NCBI GenBank assembly: GCA_029834535.1
Contig: JAQMWT010000211.1
Location: 1-29,537, forward strand
Length of the DNA: 29,537 nt
Direction of reading: 5' to 3'
From: Chrysophaeum taylorii
Lineage: Eukaryota > Sar > Pelagophyceae > Pelagomonadales > Pelagomonadaceae
Positions within the stretch are counted from its first letter, which is position 1; every line of letters begins with the position of its first letter. Below the pieces are notes generated by a model. The model was not told where the DNA came from. It worked only from the letters and a program-made list of their open reading frames with translations, and did no database searches. The translations under genes were made by a program, and so were the position numbers. Positions 3,169 to 29,537 of this stretch are shown in pieces.

Positions 3169-3732
3169 TGACAAGCGGAATGGTTTGTCCACGCCAAAGA
3201 CCGCACGCGGTCTCTACCATTTACCCGGAGATGGTCAAATCTCTCTAATATTGCGTTTTGCTATAACCGCATATTCATTCCAGGCACGCTGATTTCTCAC
3301 TTTATGCTACGCCTGAACCGTCAGCCCATGTTGCCGACTGATTATACCCTTATGGATTTCGATACCCGACTGCTGCCGAAGACTCGCTCCGATGCAGTCG
3401 CTGAAACTCGTGAGCGATTGAAGTATTATACGAAGATCGTGAACGAAGCTCGTAATAAAGCTTCGAAGAAACAGCGATTGGCTTACAACGCTGATCATGT
3501 CGATGTGGAATACAAGGAAGGATCGAAAGTTTTGCTCTACATTCCCTTCCTTCAGAACAAGCTTCGACCGAAATGGCGAGGACCGTTTATTATCAAGGAA
3601 CGCCTTTTCCCGGTCACCTATAGGCTTCAGTCTCTCGACTCTCCGCCTGAAGGACGACGAGTTCATGTTAATCAGATCACGCCTGTGATGGTTCCTCCGA
3701 TCGTCAATCAAGCCATCCGCAAACCCGAATAA
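3169..3732 (+). pseudogene. Ty3/gypsy-type integrase, C-terminal end (5'-truncated)
   Basis: An open frame from a TGA at 3166-3168 to TAA 3730-3732. The first part matches the end of the integrase core of Ty3/gypsy elements: a WxxLxNIAFCYN block, then a degenerate 'hSSTGxSPF'-like segment (IPGTLISHFMLRLNRQPMLP) that leads into the LPTD step. Further on is a GPY/F-type module with LRPKWRGPFIIKERLFPVTY, followed by RRVHVNQITPV, typical of the integrase C-terminal domain. The catalytic D,D-35-E part, RNase H and RT are missing upstream, so only the last 188 codons remain. Position just before an LTR fits the end of pol. An in-frame ATG at 3304 exists but is not a true start. Confidence 0.8.
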
Positions 3733-4212: not shown

Positions 4213-4548
4213 TGTGGCGGGAACTTCCTCCTCCGAAGGCTTACCCCTCCTTTAGCCCCCCCCCCTTATCAGGGGTACCCTACTCCGATCTGATGACGTC
4301 AATTTTCCCTATGACACCATCTTCCTTTTCTGTGACATACGTCACAGTGATTTATGTGATTCAAGAGTTCTTGATCATAAAGCAACTGCCGATCCTCCAG
4401 TTGCGATGATCAGGCGAAGGAGTTGTTTGTGGTTTTGTGGCGGGAGAACGGCCTTCCAGTCCAGCGACTCGATCGAGAGCACGGGCGTGAGCGGCGAACC
4501 TATTTTCGAAGATGAGCCCAGGTAGGGGAAATTTCCCTTTCCGCCACA
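4213..4548 (+). repeat. 3' LTR (336 bp) of a Ty3/gypsy-type element
   Basis: Starts TGTGGCGG and ends CCGCCACA, a perfect 8-bp terminal inverted repeat of the TG...CA type. It aligns along its whole length with 23832-24168, clearly similar but not identical, sharing blocks such as CTTATCAGGGG, CATCTTCCTTTTC, TTGATCATAAAGCAAC and GTGGCGGGAGAACGGCC. Its position after an integrase C-terminus makes it a 3' LTR. The presumed U3 contains the CRE-type palindrome TGACGTCA (4293-4300) and TGACATACGTCA (4332-4343). No matching 5' LTR of this copy is in the window, so no target duplication can be checked. Confidence 0.85.
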
Positions 4549-5201: not shown

Positions 5202-5422
5202 GGCTATGGGCCCAGTCCGGCACTGGTAGAGAAACGTCCTCCCAAAGACATCGATCTCGATCGACGTCTCGGACAAAGACCCAGGATTTCCAGGTAAGAG
5301 CAATCTCCCGAAGTTCCTGAAGTTGCAAATACCGTAGTCAAGTCTCATCGCTTGCTACTGGTGAGCAAGTGTGAAAAAGTTTGAAAGGCAACCAACAACG
5401 CGCAACACGCAACCCCGACAAC

Positions 5423-7966
5423 ATGGCGACTCATGACCCACAAGTCCCGAGTCTGGAAGTAGCAACGCAACTCGCTACACAAAACGCTCTCTGGCAAATC
5501 CTCAACGCTGATTTGCAACAGCTCACAGCTGCCTACGCTCATCTCAGAGCCAAAAGCGCTGCCTACAATGCCGCGCTCGCCGCAGAAATCGCTGCCACCG
5601 CAAACATCGCAGCTCAAGAAGAGCAACTCGACCAAGACGTGCAACTCGATCAAGACGAGCAACTTGGACAAGCTTCTCCACCCGCTGTTCTTACGGCAAC
5701 CCCCCTCAAGCAAGCTTCTCACGAAGTCGCGACCCAAGACCCGATCATCTCGATGGTCACCCTTCCTCCTGCTGTTCAAAGCGTTCTCGAACATGAACAG
5801 AACCCACCTCCTGCCGTCCACCCCACCGGATGTCAAACACCCCACCGCAAAGACCCCACTGCCTTCCCTCCGGACCCAGGCATAGCCAAGGTTACTCCAC
5901 AACCTGGCACACCCCACCCTCACGAGGACACTCCACCTTGTTCGAATATCGCACCAGCGATGTTGAACACTCCACCACCACCACCACTAAGCATTACTCC
6001 CTTTACTCCACCAACTCCACCGGAGCCTCCACCTCCTTCACTGGAGCCTAATTCCCCACTATCGGCGACTCCCACTTCACCATCTATTCAAGTTTCCCAA
6101 CATCCTCGTCAACCCCTTCGCCGCCACACTCATCCCCTTCCTGATGATCACGCCACCTACGGCCATGACGGCCCCGGCACCGTCATCCCGGACCAAGCCC
6201 CCACCGCGGCTCAAGCTCCTGCCGCCCCACCGTCGGACCCTCCTGTCCGATATCCATCATCTTCCGCAAGTCACTCTCCTCCAGACTTTCATCTCCACCC
6301 ACAAGACCATGCCACCTACGGCCACGACGGCCCCGGCACTTCCATTCCTACCCCAGCTCCTTCCGCTGCTCAAGCTACTACCGCCCAACCATCGGACCCT
6401 CGTGACCGACCTTCATCATCTATCGAAAGTCGCTGTCCTCCCGATTTTCATATCCACCCGCGCGATTACGCACTCCACGGCTACGACCATTTCCCCATCT
6501 CCACCCAAGCAACACTCCACCTTCTTTTTCAATGTTCCAATGCACCTCTGTCCGCGCTCCAACGCGAGTTGGCCACCACTCAGGCTGCATTCCGCTCCCC
6601 AACCGCTGACTTGGTCGCAACCAAGGCCACGCTCACTGTCAAAGACGACGCTTTGTCATCCACAGCCGCCAAACTCGCCATAACTGACGCCGCCCTAGCC
6701 TTCGCCACTGCCCAGCTCGCCATCAAAGCTGACGAATTGGTCTCCGCCCACGCGGAACTCCATCTCACCCACACCCAGTTCCAGGCACTCGAAATTGCCC
6801 ACGCTGACATTCGGAACTCCCACTCGAAACCAACGCCGTCCTCCACACCATTCTTACCTCCTTGGATGCCACCCACCCCAACCAAGATGCTGCATCGCAT
6901 CTTTCACCTCCTTTCCCCATTCACCACCTACCTTCATCCCCTTCCGAACCAACCTCCAATGCCTCTCTCCCGCTTCTCCCCAAGTATCATCACCACCTCC
7001 ACGGATGCCCCGGACCTGGTTCTCCTGGTTCACCACCCGCTCCGCCTATCTGTTCTCAACCCCCCGCCATCTCTGGCCCATCCTCCTCTGCCAAATCACT
7101 CTTCGCCTCTCTGGCACCCCCTTAACCCCTTTGCACCCGCTCGCCTTCTCAGCCACCTGGCTCATTCCAACTCGACCACATCCCCGCGTCCGAGTTGCGA
7201 GGGCGTACATCCAACACCGGCGACCGTACCCCCACCACCGGCGACGTTCCCCTCGCGCAAAGTCACACCAAGAAACAAGACCACCAACATCAAGATTCGA
7301 CAAAATTCCGAATTATCAACAGACAGCTCTCTCCCTGATGGTCATGATCACCATCATGCTGCCAAGACATGCACAAGGGCTTCTTCTCTCTTCGGGCACA
7401 ACGGCCCAGGAAGCGGTCTTGTCGAAGGAACACAAAGCCACCTCGTTCCCACTTTCGACAAGTCAAAGAACAAGATACTTCGAGATGTTCCCGAGTATTA
7501 CGCCTACGTCGACTATGGCAACCACCCTAAAGGACCCATGACTCCACCGTACTCAATGCCCCAGGCAACAGAGCCGCAGGCTACTGACAACACCCCCTCG
7601 GATTCAGCCCCCTGGTATGATGCATACTGCAAAGAAGCAAGACCGACTTCACTAGCCTCGAAGATGATCTCCCCGACCATTCCAGATCAGCCGCCTGATC
7701 CAAGCACCATCAATGCCCCCGCAATGCCGTATCCACAAGGACAAGACAGGCTGTTAACGGTCCCACGGTCAACATACTCGCAGGAACTCACCGCACCTGC
7801 AGGCATCACCTCAGATTCACCAGGCACTCCCGCCTTGTTCGATATCTCTCGATCAGCAGCTCCCGTTCACTTCGAACCTGGTTCCACCTCGCTGCCTTCT
7901 CTCCCCGAAGACACGCGCTCGCTGCTGCACCCACCATCCACCTTCTCGGCCGGATGCACTGGATGA
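5423..7966 (+). CDS. E1 ORF1: Pro/Ser/Thr-rich protein with coiled coil and 53-residue repeats
   Basis: I chose ATG 5423 because the matching E2 frame has its ATG at the same point (MATHDPQV); an earlier non-ATG start at 5381 is less likely. Order: an Ala/Gln-rich N-terminal helix, EQLDQD hexapeptide units (5619-5672), a Pro-rich stretch, two copies of a 53-residue unit containing DHATYGHDGPGT (about 6145 and 6304), and an Ala/Thr/Leu coiled-coil-like segment (ELATTQAAF ... TADLVATKATL). Near 6825 this copy changes frame relative to E2, whose ETSAVLQTILTSLDATHP continues in another E1 frame (6862-7125). E1 also lacks about 20 bp near 7925 that E2 keeps, which creates the stop at 7966. So the product as read is mosaic and the ancestral protein was probably longer. 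Function unknown; a structural Gag-like role is possible. Confidence 0.5.
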   Translation: MATHDPQVPSLEVATQLATQNALWQILNADLQQLTAAYAHLRAKSAAYNAALAAEIAATANIAAQEEQLDQDVQLDQDEQLGQASPPAVLTATPLKQASHEVATQDPIISMVTLPPAVQSVLEHEQNPPPAVHPTGCQTPHRKDPTAFPPDPGIAKVTPQPGTPHPHEDTPPCSNIAPAMLNTPPPPPLSITPFTPPTPPEPPPPSLEPNSPLSATPTSPSIQVSQHPRQPLRRHTHPLPDDHATYGHDGPGTVIPDQAPTAAQAPAAPPSDPPVRYPSSSASHSPPDFHLHPQDHATYGHDGPGTSIPTPAPSAAQATTAQPSDPRDRPSSSIESRCPPDFHIHPRDYALHGYDHFPISTQATLHLLFQCSNAPLSALQRELATTQAAFRSPTADLVATKATLTVKDDALSSTAAKLAITDAALAFATAQLAIKADELVSAHAELHLTHTQFQALEIAHADIRNSHSKPTPSSTPFLPPWMPPTPTKMLHRIFHLLSPFTTYLHPLPNQPPMPLSRFSPSIITTSTDAPDLVLLVHHPLRLSVLNPPPSLAHPPLPNHSSPLWHPLNPFAPARLLSHLAHSNSTTSPRPSCEGVHPTPATVPPPPATFPSRKVTPRNKTTNIKIRQNSELSTDSSLPDGHDHHHAAKTCTRASSLFGHNGPGSGLVEGTQSHLVPTFDKSKNKILRDVPEYYAYVDYGNHPKGPMTPPYSMPQATEPQATDNTPSDSAPWYDAYCKEARPTSLASKMISPTIPDQPPDPSTINAPAMPYPQGQDRLLTVPRSTYSQELTAPAGITSDSPGTPALFDISRSAAPVHFEPGSTSLPSLPEDTRSLLHPPSTFSAGCTG

Positions 7967-7984
7967 CACTACCCAGCAGGCTGC

Positions 7985-9693
7985 ATGGACCCATCTGCGA
8001 TCACCATTTCACGATTCGATGGATGTCTTCGCACGAGCATCAGTCGCACACATGATCACCCGCTCCCCAACTCTCAGTCAGAGGACGCACTCCTTTCGGC
8101 TGCCGATCCTTATGTCTCACCGCGACCGAGCTTCTGGAAAGCCTTACCCATGGCTGCAGTAACAGACAAAGATTTCGAGAGTTCCGAACGGCCCGCTGAG
8201 CCGCAAACTATGCACGCTTCTATTGCGACCACTTCGGTCCTTTATGTCCCCTTGCATAGCTCTCTTCTGGACGCCACACGCTTGCGCTGCCTCCGGAAAA
8301 TCGATGTTGCGCTCTCAGGGGACATTCTCCGCGCGCACTATACAGACTCGATCCCCCTGTACCGCTTCTGTCAGCATTTTCGCATAACTGGAATGTACAA
8401 CAAATGTTCCACACCAGCTGCCGGCTCCACCACAACATGCACCCAAGTCACGCACGTTGCCTCCCTCAAAAGCGTCTTATCGCTCGGCACGTCACTCCTA
8501 ATTCGAGGACGCATGTCACATGCCCGCACCTTCGAATGCACAACACGCCTATGGGCAACCCTGGTCACTACGGCACTCACTGCTCTGGTCCCCGCATCTC
8601 CGCCATTGAGGATGCACCCAGCATGACTGACCCGTCCATCGTCCTTGGTCCTACTGCACTCACGTACAATGACCCGAGCGAAATCACACTCTCCTTCGGC
8701 GATCCCCCTTTACGATTTCCCGCACTGGACCAAAAGCATTCCAGGCCGGATACTCTCCAGCACGGGATCTCAGCTCACGCGCCCATCTGCACTACCTTGC
8801 AGACAGGTCAGCCGCGCACAACACACCTTTTGGCACTGACTTCGGAACACTCGCATCACGCAATTTTGCTCTTGGAGCGTGACATGCTTCTCGATGCTCT
8901 CCGCGTCACCGCCTTCAACACCTATACACTCGTCACTTCCACCGACACTCCGCGCCGCCACGTGTCTCACGACCTTCCGATCACCGACCTAGGTCGATCG
9001 CGCCCGCACCACGTCGCGCACGCCTTACGAGGGCGCATTTCGATTGGTGATCTCACAGGTCCTTCGATGCATTCTCCGACGTCCGACTTTGAAGTTACGA
9101 GTCACTTTATGGCAATCCCCAATGCCAAGACGTCGGAAGCCGCGCAATCATGTCTCTGGAACTCCACAGCCACAGAAACTGCCGGACAAGAAAGCACACA
9201 GCTCCCCACAGCTGCTCAAAAGCTACTTATAGTCTCGCACATAGCACCGAGTACTATCTCGCAGTCTCTATTGGATGACAAGACGAAAAATAAGACCACA
9301 AAAGCTAACTACACCAATCAGCCCATTGATGTAGCAGACGAGACAATGCAAACCAACTGTACAGCACGGTTCCAGACTATGCAGACGATGCCCAGGTCCA
9401 ACGCTCAATTGCTCGACCACGCACACATTCTGTCACCCGACCTTGCACTGCTACCGGTTCCTGTCTCATTCATAGCTGATGCACCCCATCCGATGGATCA
9501 GTCCTTCAGATATGTCCCGCCCACAGAAGCACACCGCCGGACACACAGGTACATCATGAAGATACAGGCAAGCGCACCACGATCACGCGCACTATCACGC
9601 GCACTAGCTCATTGCGCCTATCTGATCACGATGAGACGAAGCGACAGCTTTGCTTGCCCCCTTCGCCTCTGGAAGACAAAGGCCGCCTTCTAG
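7985..9693 (+). pseudogene. E1 ORF2 region, frameshifted relative to E2
   Basis: Read in one frame to about 8435 (SEDALLSAADPYVSPRPSFW, then SSLLDATRLRCLRKIDVALS) and in the next frame to TAG 9691-9693 (MHPSHARCLPQKRLIARHVT ... LRGRISIGDLTGPSMHSPTS). The E2 copy keeps both halves in a single frame (14518-12986); there CACAAACATG replaces CACAACATG of E1, so a 1-base deletion near 8436 explains the shift. The same protein is therefore conserved between copies, which argues it is real and not only a by-product of C-rich DNA. No known domain recognised; the sequence is rich in His, Thr, Ser and Pro. Confidence 0.5.
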
Positions 9694-9786
9694 CCTCCCA
9701 GGCACCTGACCCGTCCCCATCGCTGCAATCCGCATTAGCACAGACGATCTCGCCTCCCTGCACGACTGCAGATCAAGCACAAGCCA

Positions 9787-11466
9787 ATGTCCGCACTCTG
9801 CAGAGTTATGCGCACCCACTGGAATCTTACCAGCACGGCTACCTCAGCCAGGCAGGTCACTGCACCACCTCGGTCTCCTTTGACACCAGGTGAGCGTATC
9901 GCTCATTCGCGATCACCTCACGTCATCTATTGGACGACTATGATCTCGAGCATGAACTCACCGCAACGCTTGAGTCATACCAAAAAAGTATCCTACTTTG
10001 GAGTCACCTCAGCCACTTCCACAGAAACTTTGGCCACCAGACGCTACCCATGTGCTCATGGTTTCTCCATTGGTTCCTCCAGAGCTTTTGACTGCAGCAG
10101 AGACAATATGCAGCCTTTCCATGCGACTTTTCTCGCATTCTCGTTTGGGACACAAGCATTTCCTTCATGTCAGATAGTTACGCTCATAGTACCGCCACAA
10201 ACGGCAACCAAGATAGACGTGGACTGCGTTCCACCCTCATCTCTGAGCGCTACCCCCGACATGCTGCTCCCGGCACTAATAGCCAGTCCCATCACGTCTG
10301 ATTCAGCTCCCATCGCCTTGTATGACGTCATACGTCATATTCCGATTACAGCCCAGACACCGCACAGGCTTCTATGCACTCGCGACGGCACGCTCACCGC
10401 CCCTCTCGGTTTGGACTACCGACATTGCGCCATCCCCATGGTACACTCGCAGTCAACCGAGATGCACGCTCGCTTGTCGCACAGTACGATGCCCGAACAC
10501 CTTTTGATTCATGATACGCAGAACACTGTCGTCTCAGCCACCGCTGAAGCGCCTCCTCCGACCGCCGCCCGGCTCTGCGCTCGTTCCGCAACCATGGTCT
10601 CTCCGTCTCACCGGCCATTCGAAGATTTCACCCAGTTCGAATTACGAGGGCGCATTAGTTTTCCACCGACGACAAGATTCGTTTCGATTCGTATCAGTCA
10701 TGCCTCCTATGGCGACTCTGGCTACATCGGAGCTCAATTCAAGGCACGTACCGAAGTCCCTCTTCCTAAGGACCTCTGTCACACGCCAAGACCGGATGAG
10801 CATTCGTCGTTCCTCCCCGCTTCAACGCGACTCCCGACGACCAAATCCCCGACGATTTGTGATGACACTAAGCTCCGTCATCAATGCAATTCCGAGCCTC
10901 CCACCCTCTTCCGTCAGTCTCTTTCAGGTCACACCTCTCAAGTTTCAGCTCACTCTATTCTATCCTGCATGCGGTCATATGCAAACAAAGTTATGTCACG
11001 CCAACGCCACATGTCGCAGTTATCGCCAGTCTCGCGCAATAAATTCCCGCCACTACATGATAGCCGCACGCAGAGTCCTTTGCTCACCTCCTTTAACGTC
11101 CCTCCCAGCACTATGCTTGACGTTTTAGCTCTGCACCACGATGGTTCGGTTACAACACAACTTCACGCGACATCCTCGCCCAGTTCTGATCATGTTTCGC
11201 ATCTGTCGACGTTACTGTCCGAATTCTGCTTCGGACGCAGCTCAGACTGCACTCGCGTGTTACGCTCTTATGCCGCACCCGGTTCGCTCCTCTTTGTTCA
11301 CAATGCAGGTTCCATCTTGCAGAACTCTGAGCCCAACAGCCGCCATTGCGATTCGCACCCAGTCGACACTTTCCATAGCACCCGCGAGGATACCCCCAAT
11401 CCCCACAGGCGGGACACGCGCTCTGCTCTCAGCATTCTACCGGATGTCACTGCCGCACACCGCTAG
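9787..11466 (+). pseudogene. E1 ORF2 region, middle part
   Basis: A 559-codon frame that continues the composition of the preceding region. It contains ELRGRISFPP near 10640, echoing LRGRI at 9027 and IRGRM at about 8507, so LRGRI-like words recur through the protein. The stretch 9694-9893 reads better in another frame (PLEDKGRLLASQAPDPS), so there is probably an indel near 9690 and another near 9890. E2 ends before this part, so there is no second copy to confirm the frame. No domain recognised, and part of the openness may come from the C-rich composition. Confidence 0.35.
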
Positions 11467-11650
11467 CCCCACCCAGTTGTGTTACGAATCAAGGGAAGTC
11501 AACTGCCATGCCTATCTCTACCTTCATTCCCGCACACTCGCTGCTAGCCACAGTCTCGCATGACCCTTATCGGACAGTTCTCACATTATGGACATTACCT
11601 AATATCATGTTCATTCTTCGGACATCGCCCGTCCACAGATTAATCCCCTC

Positions 11651-12607
11651 TTGAAACATACGCTACCTACTCGCTGTATACTGTACAGCTCTCGCATATC
11701 GACCACACCCGTCTGTCGAATGTCACCCCTTTCAGTCACTGCACGACTCACCAAGGATGCACCACGCACCCTCGCGCTTGTACATCAAAGGAAGTTTGAT
11801 TCTGGTGAAAACGACTCCGGATATGAAATGAATACTGGATCAGTCGATTGTCACGACTCAGGATTACTTTGCCGAAAGGAACACGAAAGACGCGACTCCG
11901 ACCATACCTTCAAAGTCAACTCTCCCCCAGGCAAGGACAATATCTTCGAACCGTCCATCGCCTTCAGGCATTTTCTTCTGTTGCCCAACTCTTCGGCATC
12001 TTCTGCACAGGACACACGCCTGTATCCACGATCATACGCGATACACTCGCAAACCTCAGCCCCAGTGCAATCATCTTTCGATGATAGCAAGTGGCAACCT
12101 CCACCAGACCACAACTCCAAGTCTACAGCAAGTTTAGAGTTTTCATATTTATGGCCACCCCCAGACAACTTTATCCCGATATCAACATCACACCATGATT
12201 ATCCGCATGTTATTTTAGACGCTCATAGTTTAGCTTCAGCTGGCCCACGCTACACTCAGGACGACAGCTTCGACACGTATGTGACAGGCAATTCTGGTTC
12301 TCTAATCTTCCAGGAACAGCTTCGCCTTACCCGCTATCGCTACGACGATTACCTTACCATGTCGAAACCGATTTGGTTGAATGGTCATATCTCTTCATGG
12401 GATAACGCTGCCACTCAGTCACATCGTCACACCTTTACTAGCCCAACTTTAGTCACAATAGAATCTCATCCCTATGGCCACTCTCACTATTCGCCTTTCG
12501 ATCAATCATTGGTCTGCTCCACAATTCACGACTGCCTGACCCATGATCTCTACTGTTGTTATCAGTTAGACCACTCGTTCTACTACGAGGATTCTCCAGC
12601 CACTTAG
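11651..12607 (+). pseudogene. E1 ORF2 region, C-terminal part
   Basis: A 318-codon frame ending at TAG 12605-12607, about 300 bp before the right terminal repeat. It is rich in Ser, Tyr, His and Asp (SFDTYVTGNSGSLIFQEQL, RYRYDDYLTMSKPIWLNGH) and less Pro-rich than ORF1. An internal 1-base shift from the previous segment is likely. I see no catalytic motif. The remaining 12608-12901 holds no frame I can support. Confidence 0.35.
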
Positions 12608-12985: not shown

Positions 12986-14518
12986 CTACGAGATAGTACT
13001 GGTTGCTATGTGCGAGTCTTTAAGTAGCTTTTGAGCAGCTGTCGAGAGCTGAGTGCTCTCTTGTCTGGCAGTTTCTGTTGCTTTGGAGTTCCAGAGACAT
13101 GACTGCGCAGCTTCAGACGTCTTGGCATTGGGGATTGCCATAAAGTAACTCGCAAGTTCAAAGTCGGACGTCGGAAAATGCATCGAAAGACCTGTGAGGT
13201 CACCAATTAAAATACGCCCTCGTAAGGCGAGCGCGTCGTGGTGCGGGCGCGAGCGACTTATGTTGGTGATTTGAAGGTCGTGAGATACGTTGCGGCGCGG
13301 AGTGTCGGTGGAAATGACGAGTGTCGTGGTGTTAGAGGCGGTGACGCGGAGAGCATCGACAAGCGTGTCATGCTCCAAGAGCGAAAGCGCGTGATGCGCG
13401 TGGTCCGAAGTCAGTGCCAAAAGGAGTGTGGCTCGCGGCTGACCTGTCTGCAAGGTAGGGCGGATGGGCACGTGAGCTGAGATCCCGTGGTGGAGAGTAT
13501 CCGGCCTGAAATGCTTGGGGTCCAGTGCGGGAATTCGAAAAGAGGGGTCGCCGAAGGAGAGTGCAGTTGAACCAAAGGCGATGTAAGGGTCAGTCCTGCT
13601 GGGTGCATCCTCAATAGCGGAGATGCTGGGACCAGAGCGGTGAGTGCCGGAGTGACCAGGGTTGCCCTTAGGCGTGTAGAGCATTCGAAGGTGCGGGCAT
13701 GTAACATGCGTCCTCAAATGAGGAGTGACGTGCTGAGCGATAAGACGCTTTTGAGGGAGGCAACGTACGTGACTTGGGTGCATGTTTGTGGTGGAGCCGG
13801 CAGCTGGCGTGGAACGTTTGTCGTGCATTCCAGTGATGCGAAAATGCTTACAGAAGTGGTTCAGTTGAAGCGAGTCTGTGCATAGTGCGCGGAGAATGTT
13901 TCCTGAGAGCGCAACGTCGATTTTCCGGAGGCAGCGCAAGCGTGTGGCGTCCAGAAGAGAGCTATGCAAGGGGACAAACAGGACCGATGTGGTCGCAATG
14001 GAATCGTGCATAGTTTGCGGCTGATCGGGTCGTTCAGAACTCTCGAAATCTGTGTCTGTTACTGCAGCCATGGGGAAAGCTTTCCAGAGGCTTGGTCGCG
14101 GTGAAACAATAGGATCGGCAGTCAAAAGGAGTGCGTCCTCTGACCGAAAGTTAGGGAGCGGGTGATCGGGTGCTGCGACTGGTGCTCGTGCGAAGACATC
14201 CATCAAATCGTTACAATGTGGTCGCAGATGGGTCCATGCAACCTGCCGAGCAGTGTCATCCAGTGCATCCAACCGAGAAGGTGGATGGTGGGTGCAGCAG
14301 CAAGCGCCGGTGAGCGGCAGTGCGCGCCTGTCTTCGAGGAGGGGAGGCGGCGAGGCGGAACCAGCTTCGAAGTGATCGGGAGCTGCTGATCGAGAGATAT
14401 CGAATAAGGTGGGAATGCCTTGTGAATCTGGGCTGATACCTGCAGGAGCGGTGAGTGCCTGCGAGTATGTTGACCGTGGGACCGTTGACAGCGTGTCTTG
14501 TCCTTGTGGATTCGGCAT
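12986..14518 (-). CDS. E2 ORF2, 510 codons, truncated at its C-terminus
   Basis: A single open frame that joins segments which are in different frames in E1, so it is the best available version of this part of the protein. It starts around MPNPQGQDTL, contains SRSAAPDHFEAGS, a stretch CCCTHHPPSRLDALDD that E1 partly lost, SSLLDATRLRCLRKIDVALS and LRGRILIGDLTGLSMHFPTS. The Met at 14518 is probably internal, because homologous E1 sequence continues upstream in frame with ORF1. The end is artificial, where E2 breaks against the E1 terminus. No known family. Confidence 0.5.
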   Translation of the reverse strand: MPNPQGQDTLSTVPRSTYSQALTAPAGISPDSQGIPTLFDISRSAAPDHFEAGSASPPPLLEDRRALPLTGACCCTHHPPSRLDALDDTARQVAWTHLRPHCNDLMDVFARAPVAAPDHPLPNFRSEDALLLTADPIVSPRPSLWKAFPMAAVTDTDFESSERPDQPQTMHDSIATTSVLFVPLHSSLLDATRLRCLRKIDVALSGNILRALCTDSLQLNHFCKHFRITGMHDKRSTPAAGSTTNMHPSHVRCLPQKRLIAQHVTPHLRTHVTCPHLRMLYTPKGNPGHSGTHRSGPSISAIEDAPSRTDPYIAFGSTALSFGDPSFRIPALDPKHFRPDTLHHGISAHVPIRPTLQTGQPRATLLLALTSDHAHHALSLLEHDTLVDALRVTASNTTTLVISTDTPRRNVSHDLQITNISRSRPHHDALALRGRILIGDLTGLSMHFPTSDFELASYFMAIPNAKTSEAAQSCLWNSKATETARQESTQLSTAAQKLLKDSHIATSTIS

Positions 14519-14865
14519 TGCGGGGTCATTGGTGGTGCTTGGATCAGGCGGCTGCTATGGAATGGTCGAAGATACCATCTTCGAGGCGTGTGAAGTGGGT
14601 CTTGCTTCTTCGCTGTATGCATCATACCAGGGGACTGAATCAGAGGGGATGTTGTCAGTGGCCTGCGGCTCTTGTGCCCGGTGCATGGAATACGGCGGAG
14701 CCTTAGGTTCTTGGGTGTGGTTGCCATAGTCGATGTAGGCATAATACTCGGGAACATCTAGAGGTGTCTTGTTCTTTGACTTGTCAAAAGTGGGAACGAG
14801 GTGGCTTGGTGTTTCTTCGACAAGATTGCTTCCTGGGCCGTTGTGGCCGAAGAGATAAGAAGTCC

Positions 14866-16563
14866 TTATGCATGTCTTAGCAGCATGATGGTGAGCGTGA
14901 CCATACTGTCTTTTGATAATTCGGAACTTGTCGACTCTTGATGTGGGTGGTCTTGATTCTTGGTGGGACTTTGCACGTGGAGATCGTCGCTGGTGGTAGG
15001 GGTACGGTCGCCGGTGTTGGAGGTACACCCTCGCAACTCGGACGCGGGGATGTGGTCGAGTTGGAATGAACCAGGTAGCTGATATGGCGAGCGGGTGCAA
15101 AGGGGTTCAGGGGGTGCCAAAGAGGCGAAGAGTGAGTGGGTAGATGAGGAGGGGCCAGAGATGGCGGGGGGTTGAGAACAGAGAGACGGAGTGGGTGGCG
15201 AACCAGCAGAACCAGGAGAACCAGGTCCGGGGCATCCGTGGAGGTGGTGATGATACTCGGGGAGAATCGGGGGCGAGGCATTGGAGGTTGGTTCGGAAGG
15301 GGATGAAGGTTGGTTGTGGATGGGGAAAGGAGGTGTAAGATGCGATGCAGCATCTTGGGTGGGGTGAGTGGCATCCAATGAGGTAAGAATGGTTTGGAGG
15401 ACGGCGCTGGTTTCAAGGTGGGAGCTGCGGATGTCAGCGTGGGCAGTTTCGAGTGCCTTGAGCTGGGTGTGGGTGAGATGGAGGTCGGCTTGGATGGCGA
15501 GCTGGGCAGTGGCGAAAGCCAGGGTGGCGTCGGTGGTGGTGAGTTGGTTGGCTGCGGAGGAGAAAGCGTCATCCCTGCGAATGAGCGTGGCCTTGGTTGC
15601 GGCCAATTCAGCGGTTTGGGAGCGGAATGCAGCCGTAGTGGCGGCCAACTCGCGTTGGAGCGCAGACGGAGTTGCATTGGAACTTCGAGAAAGGAGGTGG
15701 AGTGTTGCTCGAGTGGGGGCGGATGAATGGTCGTAGTCGTGGAATGCATAGTCACGCGGTTGGAGGGGCGAATCGTAGGAACAGCGACTTTCGAAAGGTG
15801 ATGAAGGTCTGTCAGGAGGGTCCGATGGTGGGGCGGCAGGAACTTGAGCCGCGGAGGGAGCTGTGGTGGAAATGGAAGTGCCGGGGCCGTCGTGGCCGTA
15901 GGTGGCATGGTCTTGTGGATGGAGAGGAAAGTCCGGAGGAGAGTGACTTACGGAAGATGATGGATATCGGACAAGGGAATCCGACAGTGGGGCGGCATGA
16001 GCTTGAGCCGCGGTGGGGGCTTGGTCAGGGATGAAGGTGCCGGGGCCGTCATGGCCGTATATGGCATGATCATCAAGAAGATGAGTGGTGCGGCGAGAGG
16101 GTTGACGAGGATGTTGGGGAACTTGTATATGTGGTGTAGCGGGAGTCGTCGATAGTGGGGAGTTAGGCTCCAGTGAAGGAGGTGGAGGCTCCGGTGGGGT
16201 TGGCGGGATGAAGGGAGTCGTGAGGGGAGTTGCCGGAAGAACAGCTTGTTGGGGAACTTGTTCAAGTTGCTCGTCTTGATCGAGTTGCACGTCTTGATCG
16301 AGTTGCTCGTCTTGATCGAGTTGCTCATCTTGAGCTTGGATTACTGTGATTTTGGCTCTGAGATCAGCGTAATCAGCGGCGATTCTGGCTTTGATAATAG
16401 CTTGATCAGCGGCGAGTTGATCCAAGAAATTAGCTTTGCGCCGTTGGCAATCAGCGGCGAACTGAGCAAAGAAATCGGCTTGGAACTGTTGAATGAGAGC
16501 TTGTTGTGTAGCGAATTGCGTTGCTACTTCCAGACTCAGGACTTGTGGGTCGTGAGTCGCCAT
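14866..16563 (-). CDS. E2 ORF1: Pro-rich, coiled-coil protein
   Basis: Starts at ATG 16563 (MATHDPQVLSLEVATQ), equivalent to E1 ATG 5423. The N-terminal helix differs from E1 (FQADFFAQFAADCQRRKANF) and is followed by several EQLDQD hexapeptides encoded by an 18-bp tandem repeat at about 16268-16335. E1's stretch between the hexapeptides and the Pro-rich part is largely absent here. Two DHA.YGHDGPGT units and the coiled-coil region are kept, then a Pro/Ser part and RGCTSNTGDRTPTTSDD. It stops at 14866, but homology with E1 continues in another frame (15100-14555: DVPEYYAYIDYGNH), so this copy too has a frameshift. Confidence 0.5.
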   Translation of the reverse strand: MATHDPQVLSLEVATQFATQQALIQQFQADFFAQFAADCQRRKANFLDQLAADQAIIKARIAADYADLRAKITVIQAQDEQLDQDEQLDQDVQLDQDEQLEQVPQQAVLPATPLTTPFIPPTPPEPPPPSLEPNSPLSTTPATPHIQVPQHPRQPSRRTTHLLDDHAIYGHDGPGTFIPDQAPTAAQAHAAPLSDSLVRYPSSSVSHSPPDFPLHPQDHATYGHDGPGTSISTTAPSAAQVPAAPPSDPPDRPSSPFESRCSYDSPLQPRDYAFHDYDHSSAPTRATLHLLSRSSNATPSALQRELAATTAAFRSQTAELAATKATLIRRDDAFSSAANQLTTTDATLAFATAQLAIQADLHLTHTQLKALETAHADIRSSHLETSAVLQTILTSLDATHPTQDAASHLTPPFPIHNQPSSPSEPTSNASPPILPEYHHHLHGCPGPGSPGSAGSPPTPSLCSQPPAISGPSSSTHSLFASLAPPEPLCTRSPYQLPGSFQLDHIPASELRGCTSNTGDRTPTTSDDLHVQSPTKNQDHPHQESTSSELSKDSMVTLTIMLLRHA

Positions 16564-16783
16564 CGTTTTCGGGGTTGCGTTTTGCGCGTTGTTGGTTGCC
16601 TTGCACACTTTTTCACACTTTTCACCAGTAGCAAGCGATGAAACTTGACTACGGTCTTAAAACTTTCAGGAACTTCAGGAGATTGCCCTTTTCTGGGAAT
16701 CCTGAGCCTTTGTCCAAGACGTCGATCGAGATCGATGTCTTTCGGAGGACGCTTCTCTACCAGTACCGGACTGGGTCCAAACC

Positions 16784-22466: not shown

Positions 22467-22789
22467 TGCAGGCCAGCAAGTTCACCTAGTCCCAATCTCT
22501 AACCCCAGTAAGTTCACCTGGTCCCAATCTCTAACCCCAGCAAAAACTCGGCGTAAACCCAATCTCTAACCCCAGTAAGTTCGGCGTAAACCCACACCCA
22601 CTCTCCTTTGAGCTCGTCGCTCTCACCCCCGCCAATCCAAGCTGCTTTGATCCGCACACGCCGCTCAGCTTTGAGTTTACTCTAAAAGCCCCAGTAAGTT
22701 CACACTTGGTCTCAGTAGGTTCACCTGGTCACTAAGTTCACCTATTCCCAATCTCTAACCCCAGTAAGTTCACCTGGTTCCAGTAAGTT
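22467..22789. repeat. Direct repeat DR1 (about 323 bp)
   Basis: Runs from TGCAGGCCAG to CAGTAAGTT and matches 23507-23830. Inside, two words alternate: AGTAAGTTCACCTGGT-like and CCCAATCTCTAACCCC-like. A unique core includes GCTCTCACCCCCGCCAATC. Confidence 0.85.
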
Positions 22790-23400
22790 AACCTATAGTG
22801 CGCGTGTAGACGCCGGGAGGGGTCTTATCGGTATTGCGCCGCACGTGTGGGGTAGGGTGGAGTCGTCGACCCAGAAGAGGATATCCTCGGGGTTGCCGAT
22901 CGACAGAGAGCCACGTAGAGCTGGACGTGACAGAAGGCGGGCTTGTGGGCAAGAGGACGCCGACCTCGCGGGGCGTCTGGCCCTGGCTCTTGTTGATCGT
23001 TTGGCGTAGGCGGGACTTAAGGGATACAGGTTGGAGGAGCCTCAGCGACAACGACACAATCAATGATGTATCTGGTACCGTTGCAGTGGCCGTGCGACGG
23101 GTCGAGGTTGCGAAGACTTTAAGCTCGCGATCAAAGTCAGCATCCCGTTGGTTGTCAGGGAGTTGAAAACTCGACTGTAAAGAGCGAGGCGTCGGCTTCC
23201 GACCCAACCTAGTCGGCCGAAAAGAACTCTGACGCCTCGTCTCCGGGAAAAAAAGGCCACGGTCACGCGCGCGTTGTCAGCATCGACAACATCGTTTCGA
23301 CGGGGCGTGAGAATGGCGCGCTGAAAGAGCCGCCGCGGGTCGTGGAAATAGTCTGAGAGGTCGCCGTAGACGGCTTGGAGGATCAATGCCTGGCTCGCGG
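22790..23400 (-). pseudogene. Helitron-type (Pif1-like) helicase, C-terminal remnant
   Basis: On the minus strand three motifs fall in the order found in Helitron helicases. First, RAILTPRRNDVVDADN (frame 23386-23060), like 'raILtptNedVdeiN'. Second, TINKSQGQTPREVGVLL (frame 23207-22788), matching the TINKSQGQT motif of SF1B/Pif1 helicases. Third, CHVQLYVALCRSATP in another frame (about 22945-22860), matching 'sHGQLYVALSR'. The frames differ, so the gene is broken. The N-terminal Rep (HUH) part and the earlier helicase motifs are absent. It lies exactly between the two direct repeats. Confidence 0.8.
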
Positions 23401-23429
23401 GCCTACCTGATCCTTACCCTAAATTGGGG

Positions 23430-23434
<5 letters not shown>

Positions 23435-23477
<43 letters not shown>
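23435..23477 (+). repeat. (ACAG)n microsatellite
   Basis: About ten uninterrupted ACAG units between the helicase remnant and DR2. Confidence 0.95.
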
Positions 23478-23481
<4 letters not shown>

Positions 23482-23506
23482 TCTGTCGATTAGTAGTATG
23501 GACAAG

Positions 23507-23830
23507 TGCAGGCCAGTAAGTTCACCTAGTCCCAATCTCTAACCCCAGTAAGTTCACCTGGACGCGTTAAGTTCACCTAGTCCCAATCTCTAACCCCTGT
23601 AAATTCGGCGTAAACCCACTCGTTCTCACATCCACTCACCCCACTCTCCTTTGAACTCGTCGCTCTCACCCCCGCCAATCTAAGCTGCTTTGATCCGCAC
23701 ACGCCGCTAACCTTCGAGTTTACTCGAAAAAACCCAGTGAGTTCGCTTGGTCCCAGTAAGTTCGCCTGGTCACTAAGTTCACCTAGTCCCAATCTCTAAC
23801 CTCCGTAAGTTCACCTGGTTCCAGTAAGTT
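23507..23830. repeat. Direct repeat DR2 (about 324 bp)
   Basis: Second copy of DR1, in the same orientation, ending CAGTAAGTT one base before the LTR that starts at 23832. The LTR element therefore inserted at or very near the edge of this repeat. Confidence 0.85.
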
Positions 23831-23831
23831 C

Positions 23832-24168
23832 TGTGGCGGCAACTCCCGCCTCCAAAGGCTTACCCCTCTTCTAGGACCCCCCCTTATCAGGGGCACCCTA
23901 CTCCGTTCTGATGATGTCAGTGTTCTCTATGACATCATCTTCCTTTTCCGTGACATGCGTCACCCTCATTTCTGTGTTTCGATATACCTTGATCATAAAG
24001 CAACAGCCGAGCCTCAAGTTGTGAGGACCAGGCACGGAAGTTGTTTGTGGTTGTGTGGCGGGAGAACGGCCACCCTCGTCCAGTGACTCCACCAAGGGCA
24101 CGGACGCGAGCGGCGAGCCAGGATTCGAAGGCACGCCAGGTAGCCCCTAAAATTCTCCTTACGCCACA
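23832..24168 (+). repeat. 5' LTR (337 bp) of the methyltransferase-bearing retrotransposon
   Basis: Starts TGTGGCGG and ends ACGCCACA, giving 7-bp inverted termini. It is homologous throughout to the LTR at 4213-4548. A primer-binding-site candidate follows two bases downstream and gag begins 465 bp later, so this is the 5' LTR. The U3 part has TGATGTCA (23912-23919) and TGACATGCGTCA (23951-23962), which keep the spacing of the CRE-like sites in the other LTR. The 3' LTR is outside the window. Confidence 0.85.
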
Positions 24169-24170
24169 GG

Positions 24171-24193
24171 TGGTGGAGGAATGCGAGATTCGA
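24171..24193 (+). promoter_or_regulatory. Primer-binding site candidate
   Basis: TGGTGGAGGAATGCGAG and the bases after it lie two bases after the LTR end. The reverse complement ends ...CTCCACCA and includes TCGAATC, like a tRNA 3' end (T-loop TTCGAATC, acceptor strand, CCA). That fits minus-strand priming by a tRNA. Which tRNA cannot be told without the host tRNA set. Confidence 0.55.
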
Positions 24194-24456
24194 GCGACTA
24201 TGTCGGTCGCAGCGAACTAGTGCATCTTGCATTATCTACACGGACCGGACAAGCCGTGCGCGCCCTGATCGAGCGCGCCGACAAGGAATTCCAGAAGGAC
24301 CACTGCCGTGGGAAAGTTCCCCGGCCGGATACGTTAGTCGTCGGAAGTGACGACGCGCGATTCGGTGCTAGCCGACGCGCAACCCGGGTACCGCTGCCGC
24401 AGGCGAGCGGAGTGAGATCGCAACTCACGGATAAGGCATCGATTGCCGGGCAGTGA
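24181..24456 (+). CDS. Short upstream ORF in the leader
   Basis: ATG 24181 overlaps the primer-binding site; 91 codons. It includes TGQAVRALIERADKEFQK, a plausible amphipathic helix, but there is no second copy to test conservation. It may be a chance frame in the 5' leader, or a uORF that limits translation of gag at 24634. Confidence 0.25.
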   Translation: MRDSSDYVGRSELVHLALSTRTGQAVRALIERADKEFQKDHCRGKVPRPDTLVVGSDDARFGASRRATRVPLPQASGVRSQLTDKASIAGQ

Positions 24457-27600: not shown

Positions 27601-27873
27601 TCCGAGATTGTCTTGGAGGAAGAGCGGAAGCCGCCAGATAAAGAGGCTGCCGCGAGCGTTATGGCGATGACGCCAACAACAGATGATATGAAAGCTCAAG
27701 CAGCGGTATCGATGCCCAACCCCGGAGATGAGCGAGTCAGAGCCCGATGTGCTCACACTTCGTTGACGCCGCGAGACGGCAAGACGATCGAAGATGATTT
27801 GGTTACCCTCAGTTGTTTAGATACGGGTACTCTTACATTTGTAGCCTGTCACATCTACAGGAATCGTGACTGA
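24634..27873 (+). CDS. gag-pro: Gag-protease polyprotein of the LTR retrotransposon
   Basis: 1079 codons from ATG 24634 to TGA 27871-27873. Order: an acidic N-terminus (residues 1-60), a coiled coil with repeated EENER words (80-150), a basic/acidic hinge, a helical capsid-like region (200-460; LDGRDQDQFDLDAGAV, LIRGLESSELKSRVRTM), a Cys/His cluster C509-x2-C512-x6-H519-x4-H524-x5-C530-x11-C542, and an Arg/Ser-rich stretch (607-672) with many RS/SR pairs like the RS domains of splicing factors. A long acidic part follows, and then the end carries LSCLDTGT at residues 1060-1067, a retropepsin-type DTG. The order Gag, nucleic-acid-binding region, protease is standard for LTR elements. The Zn cluster is not the usual CCHC knuckle. 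The stop falls 14 codons after DTGT, inside the expected protease fold. Confidence 0.75.
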   Translation: MEDDDAAVEQLRYEESPSRQDETNDRNDDDDNDYDEEEHDTEVDDEEEELDYNDGKPTERPTGERSTAPSTRAGPPDATKMNEFYEAHLRALREENERAQERLLKQIGEENERKERLQRKEKGELKEQLRTADARADAFQDQVSSLTRERDELRTPSRSRRASSTGSRAEEEPPTTRSRAKARKPRYEDDDEEEKEETRGDGRIDTQEFLMGFTDRFASALAKHDRNKERRSTSGLKTETFKLVLDGRDQDQFDLDAGAVMSTLAEDHFSLEKLRYLLPATLRDTVAPIFREHLKKYEDLCKDLDHPASFYLRRDVDDEEYGSVVRRIRRLNEKYCLKILKYFRESCPLPVTAEESLRKLQCTTQATVPKRSGERHVHTYCIKFQKEAMAYCSVANRDLNDVEIISYLIRGLESSELKSRVRTMRSGHPTTYNTFTSTLSLITRLENDFATAMAEKNSRNSMNPSSGKPQKPPSGRGGRALASGTKDKTTKYEALRLEENPKKWFERTCKDCGFFLTTHDKDEHGNRVICNREPDDYYVAMCKYIEDGIKPISRGRWESRQRKDNHSRDDGSSNATLCSSAAQDIQSRLHDMGTQLITVMDSVKHLIDGHGRSSSTRPGRRDSRSPRCRDKSRSSSRQRRRKDSRSSSRHSRRRRRRRSHDRNSDDGRYREDSGHSSAAFAFTTPCGQQLPLGVMVYPNTDIHTDDTADALAAAAFEDLARQPMDEPPNDVLTNRRSLAQIYEQMSSDELEDSSEELEAPRYWEGDSDLEDEEATPCEPVSAITLFDESSTDDPPFIFDEEALDAIGLSLDPPEMTVGDRTGCEPDLDFCSDSLCAHSPDETMTTASDADDDFTIELTSGTTTSFPADPPETVSVTTDRATDTPPEEKDRFKKKISSVLEWDEDEPTWNLQDLWTKTLKFLLKKPPEQPLSYGLEAAADTEPIADDGEDQPATNEFTDTFWNDEMIDLWEGSFASKNYEDQDPLPALMPSEIVLEEERKPPDKEAAASVMAMTPTTDDMKAQAAVSMPNPGDERVRARCAHTSLTPRDGKTIEDDLVTLSCLDTGTLTFVACHIYRNRD

Positions 27874-29537
27874 CCGAAATTCTCGACGACCATCGGTGTC
27901 GATGGAATGGCATATGTTTCTTATATTTGCCGAGAAATGGTCAGAAAGTTGGCCAAAGATCAGTTGATTTTCGATGAAGGCGAACTTCCGATTAAGCGCA
28001 AGCTGTACGGATCAGGGTTGAATACGACGACGATCTATCGTTGGATCGCGATTCGGGTCGCCCTCGCCGACGACATCGCTGCCCCCATTGTCGCTATTGT
28101 AGCCGATACGAACTATCTGTTCCTGTTGGGAGGGCGCGATATACGAGTTTTGGGGGCCGTCGTGGACTATCCCCACGATCGGATCTGTTTTTATCGAACT
28201 CAAGTCGTCTACGGGCGCAAGAAGATTAAAGTTGAGGATGAACGAGTCGATGCACCCATCGTGACCTTTCGATCTATTTACGATCGAGATCCGATAACCG
28301 TGCCGATTTACAATCATCAACACGATGCCTTTCGGAAGAGTCTCGACCTGGTCAAGACTCGAGTTTACGCTCGTTTGAGCACGATTAAAGATCTCCGAAG
28401 CCCGCCGCCGGAACGTACGGTAGCCTTGGCTACGCGGGGACATGCTACGACCAAATTCTCCCCAGCTCCGGGAGAAGCCGCGCAGGAAGTAGTTGCTTAT
28501 GCTGCGCGCACGCTTCAAATTGAGCCCGGTCGAACTTACAATCTACCGGTTATTTTGTCGAAGCCTATGGAAATGGGACAGGTTTTCGTCGCTACGTTTG
28601 CTGAGAACGAGCAGTTGGGAGTTGTCGAAGGAATGTGTTCTTCTTGCGAAGAGCACGACCGGTTCGCTGCTCGGGTGGTGGTTACGGCCACGGAAGAAGT
28701 GCCGACGGTCGTCACTCAAGGCGAAGTCCTTGCGATTGGCGGTATCGTTAGGTACGAATATGAGTTGAGCGTCTCTACGATCAAAGAACTTACGAAAGAA
28801 TGTGAAGAAGGATACGACAAGGGGAACCTTTCTTTCACCGTTTCTGTCGCTAGTCACTTTACGCGATGCGACGAATCTCCCCCGCCGATGCTGCTGAGCA
28901 CGGTACAGAAGGACGCTACGACCGCTATGACGGACAAGTCCACCCTCCAACGACCTGAAGGCAGCGACGATTTCGCTCGAAGGTCGGAAGAAGATGAAAA
29001 GAAATGCCGCGAGATCACCGAAGCGGAGATCCGCTGCCGATATGAAAAGGCTCAATGGCTTCCAATCACTTATCGCAAGGTGGTGATGCTGTTCAGTGGA
29101 GCCGGAGGCAGTACTTTAGGTCTCCAACGAGCCAACGAAACGTGTGGGACGTCGTTTCGAGTCGTGCTAGCACTCGATGCGTCGGACACCGCCAACCAGA
29201 TCCACCATAAGAATTTTCCGAACATTCCTGTGGTGCAGCACACACTGTGTGGTCGCTATGTTACAACCTTACGGTTGATCGAATCTTATTTACCCTACGC
29301 GGAATGGTCGTCGTCGATGTGTGTCGCGTCGCCACCCTGCGTACACTCCGCTCTGTGCAACTTGACCTCCAGAGATGTTGGGAAAGGAGTCACCGCTACC
29401 CACTGGACGATGAAATTATGCAAGATGGCTGGTTTCTTCATGTGGCTGATAGAGCAGGAGGCTTCGATTATTTCTTACGTTGCACGTTTGCACCCTTACG
29501 TGTACGTCGTCAATTTTTACGACATAACTCCCAGTTT
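27874..29537 (+). CDS. Pol segment: protease C-half, beta-rich spacer, C5 cytosine DNA methyltransferase (partial)
   Basis: In the same frame as gag-pro, open from the TGA at 27871 to the right edge with no stop. First is a protease-like part with VDGMAYVSYI and YLFLLGGRDIRVLGAVVDY, the latter matching the retropepsin 'LLGxD' flap-end motif. Next is a spacer (TLQIEPGRTYNLPVI ... AARVVVTATEEV ... GEVLAIGG) like the beta-rich segment found after protease in many Ty3/gypsy-like elements. From about 29077 comes a C5-methyltransferase: motif I LFSGAGGSTLGLQRA (from 29089), motif II VLALDASDTANQIHHKNFPN, and catalytic motif IV SPPCVHSALCN with the Cys codon at 29338-29340. Motif VI (ENV) is not clear; the candidate HPYVYVVNFYD lacks the Glu. 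Motifs VIII-X and any RT lie outside the window. It would act on DNA to make 5-methylcytosine if active. Confidence 0.8.

Follow-up and report, generated by a model that had tools for sequence, protein, structure and literature searches.

A C5-methyltransferase-type domain in the Pol region of a Ty3/gypsy retrotransposon family of the pelagophyte Chrysophaeum taylorii

The right-hand part of contig JAQMWT010000211.1 of the pelagophyte Chrysophaeum taylorii, analyzed here at its entire length of 29,537 nt (hereafter the window; contig C211), is almost certainly a truncated copy of a Ty3/gypsy LTR retrotransposon family. From sequence comparison, the order within this family is a Gag side, a presumed protease, a C5-methyltransferase-type domain, RT, RNase H, and integrase, and motifs I–IV of the domain are homologous to those of C5 methyltransferases. 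Overall, the explanation that fits best, and which we regard as probable, is a gypsy-borne, homologous, and selected domain with a non-canonical role in the particle. As to the nature of that role, we tentatively favor a non-catalytic or altered-chemistry function as likelier than ordinary 5mC writing on DNA, with confidence somewhat short of even.

Structure of the element in the window and in other copies

The right end of the window is the contig end and lies inside the element, so the window copy is incomplete (Table 1). Motif I, the motif II–III region, and SPPC lie in order in a single frame from 27907, confirming what the original prediction had read from the letters. That prediction also placed the domain in the same frame as, and downstream of, a Gag and protease region behind an LTR. 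The upstream LTR and the common reading frame hold, but in the window copy the Gag-side frame and the domain-bearing ORF are split by the in-frame TGA, a position at which 0 of 29 close copies have a stop. Furthermore, no Gag or retropepsin model scored above the Pfam cut-off on the window frames or on L032, the copy described below, and both names are presumed by position only.

Table 1. Features of the element copy in the window (window positions).
Feature	Position	Strand	Remark
5′ LTR, 337 bp, TGTGGCGG...CGCCACA	23832..24168	+	Aligned with the LTRs at both ends of four other copies
Putative primer-binding site, TGGTGGAGGAATGCGAGATTCGAGC	24171..24195	+	2 bp past the LTR
Gag-side open frame, 1079 aa	24634..27873	+	Ends at in-frame TGA 27871-27873
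Presumed protease plus spacer, N-terminal side of the methyltransferase domain	27907..29091	+	Position only
Motif I (SAM-binding), FSGAGGSTLGLQRA	29092..29133	+	FSGAGG in 34/36 other copies; alignments A3 and A4
Motif II-III region, LDASDTANQIHHKNFPN (LDASD...NFPN)	29173..29223	+	Aligned to IDNDNLVEKTHHKNFPN of the PF00145 protein P0001
Motif IV, SPPCVHS	29329..29349	+	Catalytic-type cysteine codon 29338-29340; SPPC in 36/36 other copies
KLCKMAGF, opposite motif VI (ENV) in alignment A4	29413..29436	+	ENV absent
Domain continuation up to the contig end	29437..29537	+	Motifs VIII (CRVRLLV), IX, and X visible in other copies only

The stretch read as a primer-binding site is present behind the 5′ LTR of four other copies too, with one base differing over the part compared. 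Exact-pattern searches for the primer tRNA gave no match, and none of the 20 tRNAs read from 65 was exact; the best ungapped agreement among those 20 was 18/22, to a tRNA-Pro (L119). By eye, and with one gap allowed, a tRNA-Ala (L115) comes near the site.

We searched the 70.8-Mb assembly (697 contigs) with the window frame and obtained at least 84 matches; as 80 of 1233 candidates were scored, copy counts are lower bounds. One copy, L032 on contig C5, contains an open ORF of 2838 residues within a stop-to-stop frame of 3063. Along it, the C5-methyltransferase-like domain (Pfam match from residue 1218, 18.4 bits) is followed by RVT_1 (from 1772, 45.9 bits), RT_RNaseH (2031, 89.2 bits), Integrase_H2C2 (2327, 64.7 bits), rve (2403, 44.9 bits), and the integrase C-terminal model p58_C (2642, with a score right at the cut-off). 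The original prediction had left open whether the domain was inserted between protease and RT or replaced a part of pol. The order in L032, with RT, RNase H, and integrase all downstream, shows that the domain is inserted and does not replace RT. A host DNMT gene beside an unrelated element was rejected, RT and integrase being in the same frame as the domain.

Direct LTR pairs of ~337 bp with TG...CA ends were found in all four copies checked, with identities of 336/336 (100%), 331/335 (98.8%), 309/316 with 23 gap columns (97.8%), and 323/336 (96.1%). These pairs bear out the LTR called in the window, and RT, RNase H, integrase, and a 3′ LTR, which the original prediction proposed to look for, are all present in other copies. 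In a genome search with the LTR, 40 of 481 candidate places were scored, and these matched. The copy on C47 has the 5-bp sequence GTTTT on both flanks, and the flanks of the other three do not match. On a single contig (C5:520043-554379), two copies (L033 and L036) lie in the same orientation; AGGAG is common to their outermost flanks and each copy's own flanks differ, a pattern that looks as though it could stem from recombination or else from chance.

When loci were picked by RNase H instead (150 of 625 candidates scored, 8 read upstream), 7 of the 8 had part of the domain where it was expected. At C157:15650-20031 (L093 with L087), Gag-side sequence sits at the expected domain position, upstream of a recognizable post-domain region, and the presumed protease and methyltransferase domain are missing from this copy.

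Between the domain and RT lies a homopolymer of C whose length varies (e.g., in L007 and L003). Of the 32 copies assessed (36 loci tried), 18 have a spacing across this run that is divisible by three, and 14 fall in the other two phases (10 and 4). The variable run may represent slippage, homopolymer sequencing error, or a frameshift site. In copies whose frame is broken here, the domain remains on the Gag side, which is one reason for considering it as a particle component.

Several further repeats are found in the window. A frame at 3304-3732, similar to the ORF for the integrase C-terminus in L031, and an LTR at 4213-4548, 79.6% identical to the window 5′ LTR, are by their similarity the remnant of an older copy. 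Left of the 5′ LTR, at 22478-23830, lie short repeats of the aagttcacctggtcc type, with similar ones in L031, L032, and L037. Long frames at 5381-12607 (+) and 12986-16608 (−) lie on opposite strands and encode proteins that resemble each other, MATHDPQV... being one example; four of the frames were tested with no Pfam match, and they probably represent inverted copies of a further repeated element.

Relationship to C5 methyltransferases and the missing motif VI

Against the window frame, the Pfam C5-methylase model PF00145 matched residues 391–446 (E = 0.0011) at 19 bits, under its cut-off of 22. With the 368-residue domain alone from two other copies, the same model gave 25.0 and 26.4 bits. 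In the HMM check that the original prediction called for, the score is thus below the cut-off on the frame of the window and above it on the isolated domain of the two other copies. We also built a profile from 14 copies of the domain, chosen for the absence of stops. Over motifs I–IV, hhalign aligned this profile with bacterial C5 methyltransferases at E = 8e-13 and with DNMT2 at 6e-12, each E-value being that of one comparison.

Database searches gave fainter signals. The domain profile yielded one weak match among 7995 scored proteins, P0001 (a PF00145 protein; E = 0.036), which is the closest protein found, at 40% identity over 78 aligned residues. A PDB search with the single window sequence recovered DNMT2 at E = 0.013; with the 14-copy profile, DNMT2 was recovered at 0.27–0.29, ranked behind an unrelated protein (0.16). 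A protein search for homologues of the element gave none at E ≤ 0.01 among 4120 candidates of 0.55–1.75 times the length of the 1834-aa frame, and no relative was found in the viral contigs searched.

For the C-terminal half (motifs IX–X), a bacterial profile matched in the right place with a score of 26.1, compared to a maximum of 20.9 in 50 column shuffles and 15.7 when reversed. A broader bacterial profile scored 19.0 (200 shuffles: 95th percentile 18.4, maximum 23.1), and the best match to the DNMT2 profile, at 19.4, was in the wrong place. By these scores, the match of motifs IX–X is weaker than that of motifs I–IV, and ~90 residues in all are safely alignable with C5 methyltransferases.

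AF2 with element copies only failed (pLDDT 34). Upon addition of bacterial C5 enzymes, block means reached 61–89 for residues 21–110 and 64–73 for residues 261–300; this second model had a mean pLDDT of 47.7, with 229 of 368 residues below 50. In a Foldseek search with the second model, the best 50 matches were all C5 methyltransferases, with DNMT2 first and DNMT3 chains lower, but the TM-scores (query length) were low, at 0.18–0.39, and the model includes homologues in its alignment and is therefore not independent. Among PDB structures, DNMT2 (TRDMT1) thus ranks first both for the single window sequence and for the fold.

We next counted motifs in 36 copies besides the window: 29 close copies and 7 of a subfamily, two members of which share 79% identity with L032 across the domain. 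In addition to motifs I and IV (Table 1), RVRLLV (motif VIII) is kept in 36 of 36 and VVPP in 35 of 36. The residue after SPPC is V in the copies shown, where Q is usual. ENV (motif VI), searched for between residues 1218 and 1500, was found in none of the 36 copies, whereas all 19 DNMT2-type proteins aligned keep E-N-V.

In the aligned copies, the absence of ENV is certain, and what replaces it differs between two alignments: KLCKMAGF stands opposite ENV in A4 (MAFFT), and a gap does so in A3. All 36 copies have the C of LCK; other cysteines are invariant too. Motif VIII is colinear in both alignments. The distance between motif VIII and RSL (motif IX) is 71 residues in the domain, compared to 119 in P0001.

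Selection, CpG content, and possible roles of the domain

To estimate selection, dN/dS was calculated by pooled pairwise Nei-Gojobori counts, leaving out four duplicate loci and dropping pairs with <70% of a region. Between subfamilies, the ratios were 0.076 for motifs I–IV, 0.042 for IV–VIII, 0.092 for the linker, 0.026 for RT (28 pairs), and 0.339 for the post-domain region; these are rough, as dS in these regions is 0.7–1.8 and near saturation. For VIII–X, synonymous sites are saturated between subfamilies (dN 0.18). Within the close group, dN/dS was 0.24 for I–IV, 0.06 for IV–VIII, 0.43 for VIII–X, 0.31 for the presumed protease and spacer, and 0.07 for RT (6 pairs), and within the other subfamily it was 0.13, 0.13, and 0.29 for the three parts of the domain and 0.15 for RT. 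Judged from these ratios, motifs I–VIII are under purifying selection, somewhat weaker than that on RT. Therefore, motifs I–VIII have a function for the element.

The CpG observed/expected ratio is 1.40 in the window element and 1.32 and 1.33 in two other copies, compared to 0.97 in the remaining window sequence, 1.00 in the frame of a copia element described below, and 1.26 and 1.46 at two host-gene loci. The window LTR alone has a ratio of 0.74. We compared substitutions in 28 copies with one copy (L032) over residues 700–1960. C-to-T changes occurred at 152 of 8546 CpG sites (0.0178) and at 294 of 16319 other C (0.0180), and G-to-A changes at 200 of 8546 CpG sites and 453 of 17611 sites elsewhere. 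Sorted by the next base, C-to-T changes are most frequent at CT (163/5167, 0.0315) and least frequent at CC (0.0061), a roughly five-fold range. Nothing in the sequence of the coding part points to heavy 5mC at CpG, and the data are compatible with methylation in the LTR, in contexts other than CpG, or on RNA.

We hypothesize that the domain would be translated together with Gag-Pol and housed in the particle beside the element RNA and cDNA, where it may act as a SAM-binding, nucleic-acid-contacting accessory to replication or integration. What it does for the element is probably not ordinary DNA methylation. Sequence-specific 5mC on DNA is doubtful as the main activity because ENV is missing and the usual target-recognition stretch is short; as the domain retains motifs I and VIII and the PPC cysteine, some catalysis may remain.

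The same retained motifs, together with purifying selection, speak for an active DNA C5 methyltransferase with which the element methylates its own cDNA, passing as host DNA or evading degradation, as has been proposed for the retrotransposon DNMTs of Symbiodinium and Klebsormidium. The low LTR ratio agrees with such an enzyme, and passages of de Mendoza et al. (2018, PMC5890265) state in discussion that SymbioDIRS-Dnmt3 methylates CG de novo and that the tested SymbioLINE enzyme does not. However, the lack of ENV in every copy counted, the ratios of 1.32–1.40 in three long element stretches, and the lack of excess C-to-T or G-to-A change at CpG argue against it. The absence of CpG depletion is weak evidence, because only SymbioLINE is described as CG-depleted among the Symbiodinium families in the same passages. 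We consider an active enzyme of this kind unlikely, though a real contender. The original prediction had proposed that the element writes methylation on its own or its neighbors' DNA; the missing ENV, the shortened VIII–IX stretch, the unchanged substitution rate at CpG, and coding DNA that is not CpG-depleted count against that proposal, and the LTR ratio points the other way.

In the RsmB/NSUN RNA m5C enzymes, two cysteines are the rule. An RNA-type chemistry could accordingly be imagined for the domain, in which the motif VI Glu has given way to the conserved Cys of LCKMAGF, pairing with that of PPC as in RNA m5C methyltransferases, with genomic RNA or the primer tRNA as the target. The LCK cysteine is constant across both subfamilies, and the nearest solved structure by single-sequence and fold search, DNMT2, is a tRNA methyltransferase. 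Yet the pairing is based on one MAFFT alignment (A4) and contradicted by A3, model confidence is low in the LCKMAGF region, and further cysteines are equally invariant, so this reading seems improbable.

A captured gene that persists as a neutral passenger or as a remnant could account for the loss of motif VI, the shortened VIII–IX stretch, and the loose VIII–X part in the close group (dN/dS 0.43), but dN/dS of 0.04–0.08 for motifs I–VIII between subfamilies, compared to 0.34 directly after the domain, makes it very improbable, and we rejected it on this selection result. A chance likeness of motifs without C5 methyltransferase kinship, for which one could cite the sub-cut-off Pfam scores of 18–19 bits in long frames, the unrelated protein on top of the PDB profile search, and the lack of relatives among proteins comparable in length to the 1834-aa frame, is the least credible account and was rejected on the identity to P0001, the order of the motifs, and the hhalign profile matches.

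A second methyltransferase-bearing family and known retrotransposon systems

A search of the assembly with PF00145 gave at least 57 matches (123 of 474 candidates scored), and seven places were read. Five of them (L041, L042, L044, L045, and L055) are one repeated family, with PCQ in 5/5 and ENV in 4/5, L045 having ENA. In L055 (736-6555; C96:62400-69000), a 1939-aa frame matches PF00145 (32.1 bits), then rve weakly (17.3 bits, under the cut-off), and then RVT_2 (133.2 bits). By this order, the family is a copia element whose C5 methyltransferase-type domain precedes integrase and RT. It shares with the gypsy family an LTR-class pol joined to such a domain and differs in its copia order, its PCQ, and its mostly kept ENV.

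No similarity between the copia and gypsy domains was detected by hhalign (16.5), suggesting that the two may be independent captures. Independence is only suggested, because the host gene L040, although it matches bacterial C5 enzymes, likewise goes unrecognized by the gypsy profile. L040 (1024-3537; C621) is an apparent host C5 methyltransferase with a 2086-residue open frame and a PF00145 score of 65 bits. Another host gene, L039 (C634), is DNMT2-like and matches CTAYLR_008533 along its whole length at 100% identity.

Combining these observations, a captured C5 methyltransferase could have been reworked as a replication factor, with a two-cysteine center and a shortened target-recognition stretch, that either acts on primer tRNA or the RNA of the element or else binds SAM and nucleic acid but catalyzes nothing, and with another capture, in the copia family, that keeps ENV. 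We offer this combined account as speculative and, taken as a whole, rather unlikely.

Retrotransposon-borne C5 methyltransferases have been characterized in dinoflagellates and in one charophyte, where self-methylation has been discussed as their use. The original prediction wondered whether the present element comes from one of those lineages; its host is neither, but a pelagophyte stramenopile. The closest parallel is KnitGypsy-Dnmt3 of Klebsormidium nitens. Passages of de Mendoza et al. (PMC5890265) describe it as an LTR Gypsy element whose Pol polyprotein ORF includes a C5 methyltransferase of Dnmt3 type, with key residues conserved and under purifying selection, and whose repeats are arranged as in DIRS. 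Both are gypsy elements with a selected C5 methyltransferase domain in Pol. In contrast to the charophyte element with its DIRS-like repeats, that of C. taylorii has a pelagophyte host and plain direct LTR pairs in 4/4 copies, and whereas KnitGypsy-Dnmt3 is Dnmt3-type with key residues kept, the C. taylorii domain lacks ENV and is nearest to DNMT2 or the bacterial type in searches. A 2025 paper calls the streptophyte elements Copia.

The Symbiodinium families SymbioDIRS-Dnmt3 and SymbioLINE-Dnmt are reported in the same passages of PMC5890265 to have many copies, purifying selection, and conserved key residues. They resemble the present family as multicopy retrotransposon-borne C5 methyltransferases under purifying selection, but belong to the DIRS and LINE classes and not to gypsy. 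A 2019 opinion (PMC6338049) mentions DAM- and DCM-encoding Ty3/Gypsy and DIRS elements in stramenopiles, among others. Its statement is general: the passages in question specify neither methylase type, species, nor element for stramenopiles and name no pelagophyte. Because this opinion already places methylase-bearing retrotransposons in stramenopiles, we make no claim of novelty on the host group alone. Our literature searches found no report of the C. taylorii gypsy element, and the main text of the C. taylorii genome paper contains no word starting with transpos, retro, or repeat.

What sets the C. taylorii case apart from the KnitGypsy-Dnmt3 precedent is the pelagophyte host, the absence of ENV, the nearest matches of DNMT2 or bacterial type, and a second domain in a copia family. 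The occurrence of methyltransferase domains in gypsy and copia elements of one 71-Mb pelagophyte genome suggests that such capture is recurrent and useful. A well-conserved domain without ENV suggests further that its use need not be ordinary DNA methylation. With a gypsy domain that lacks ENV and a copia domain that has it, the pair makes the function of the domain directly testable.
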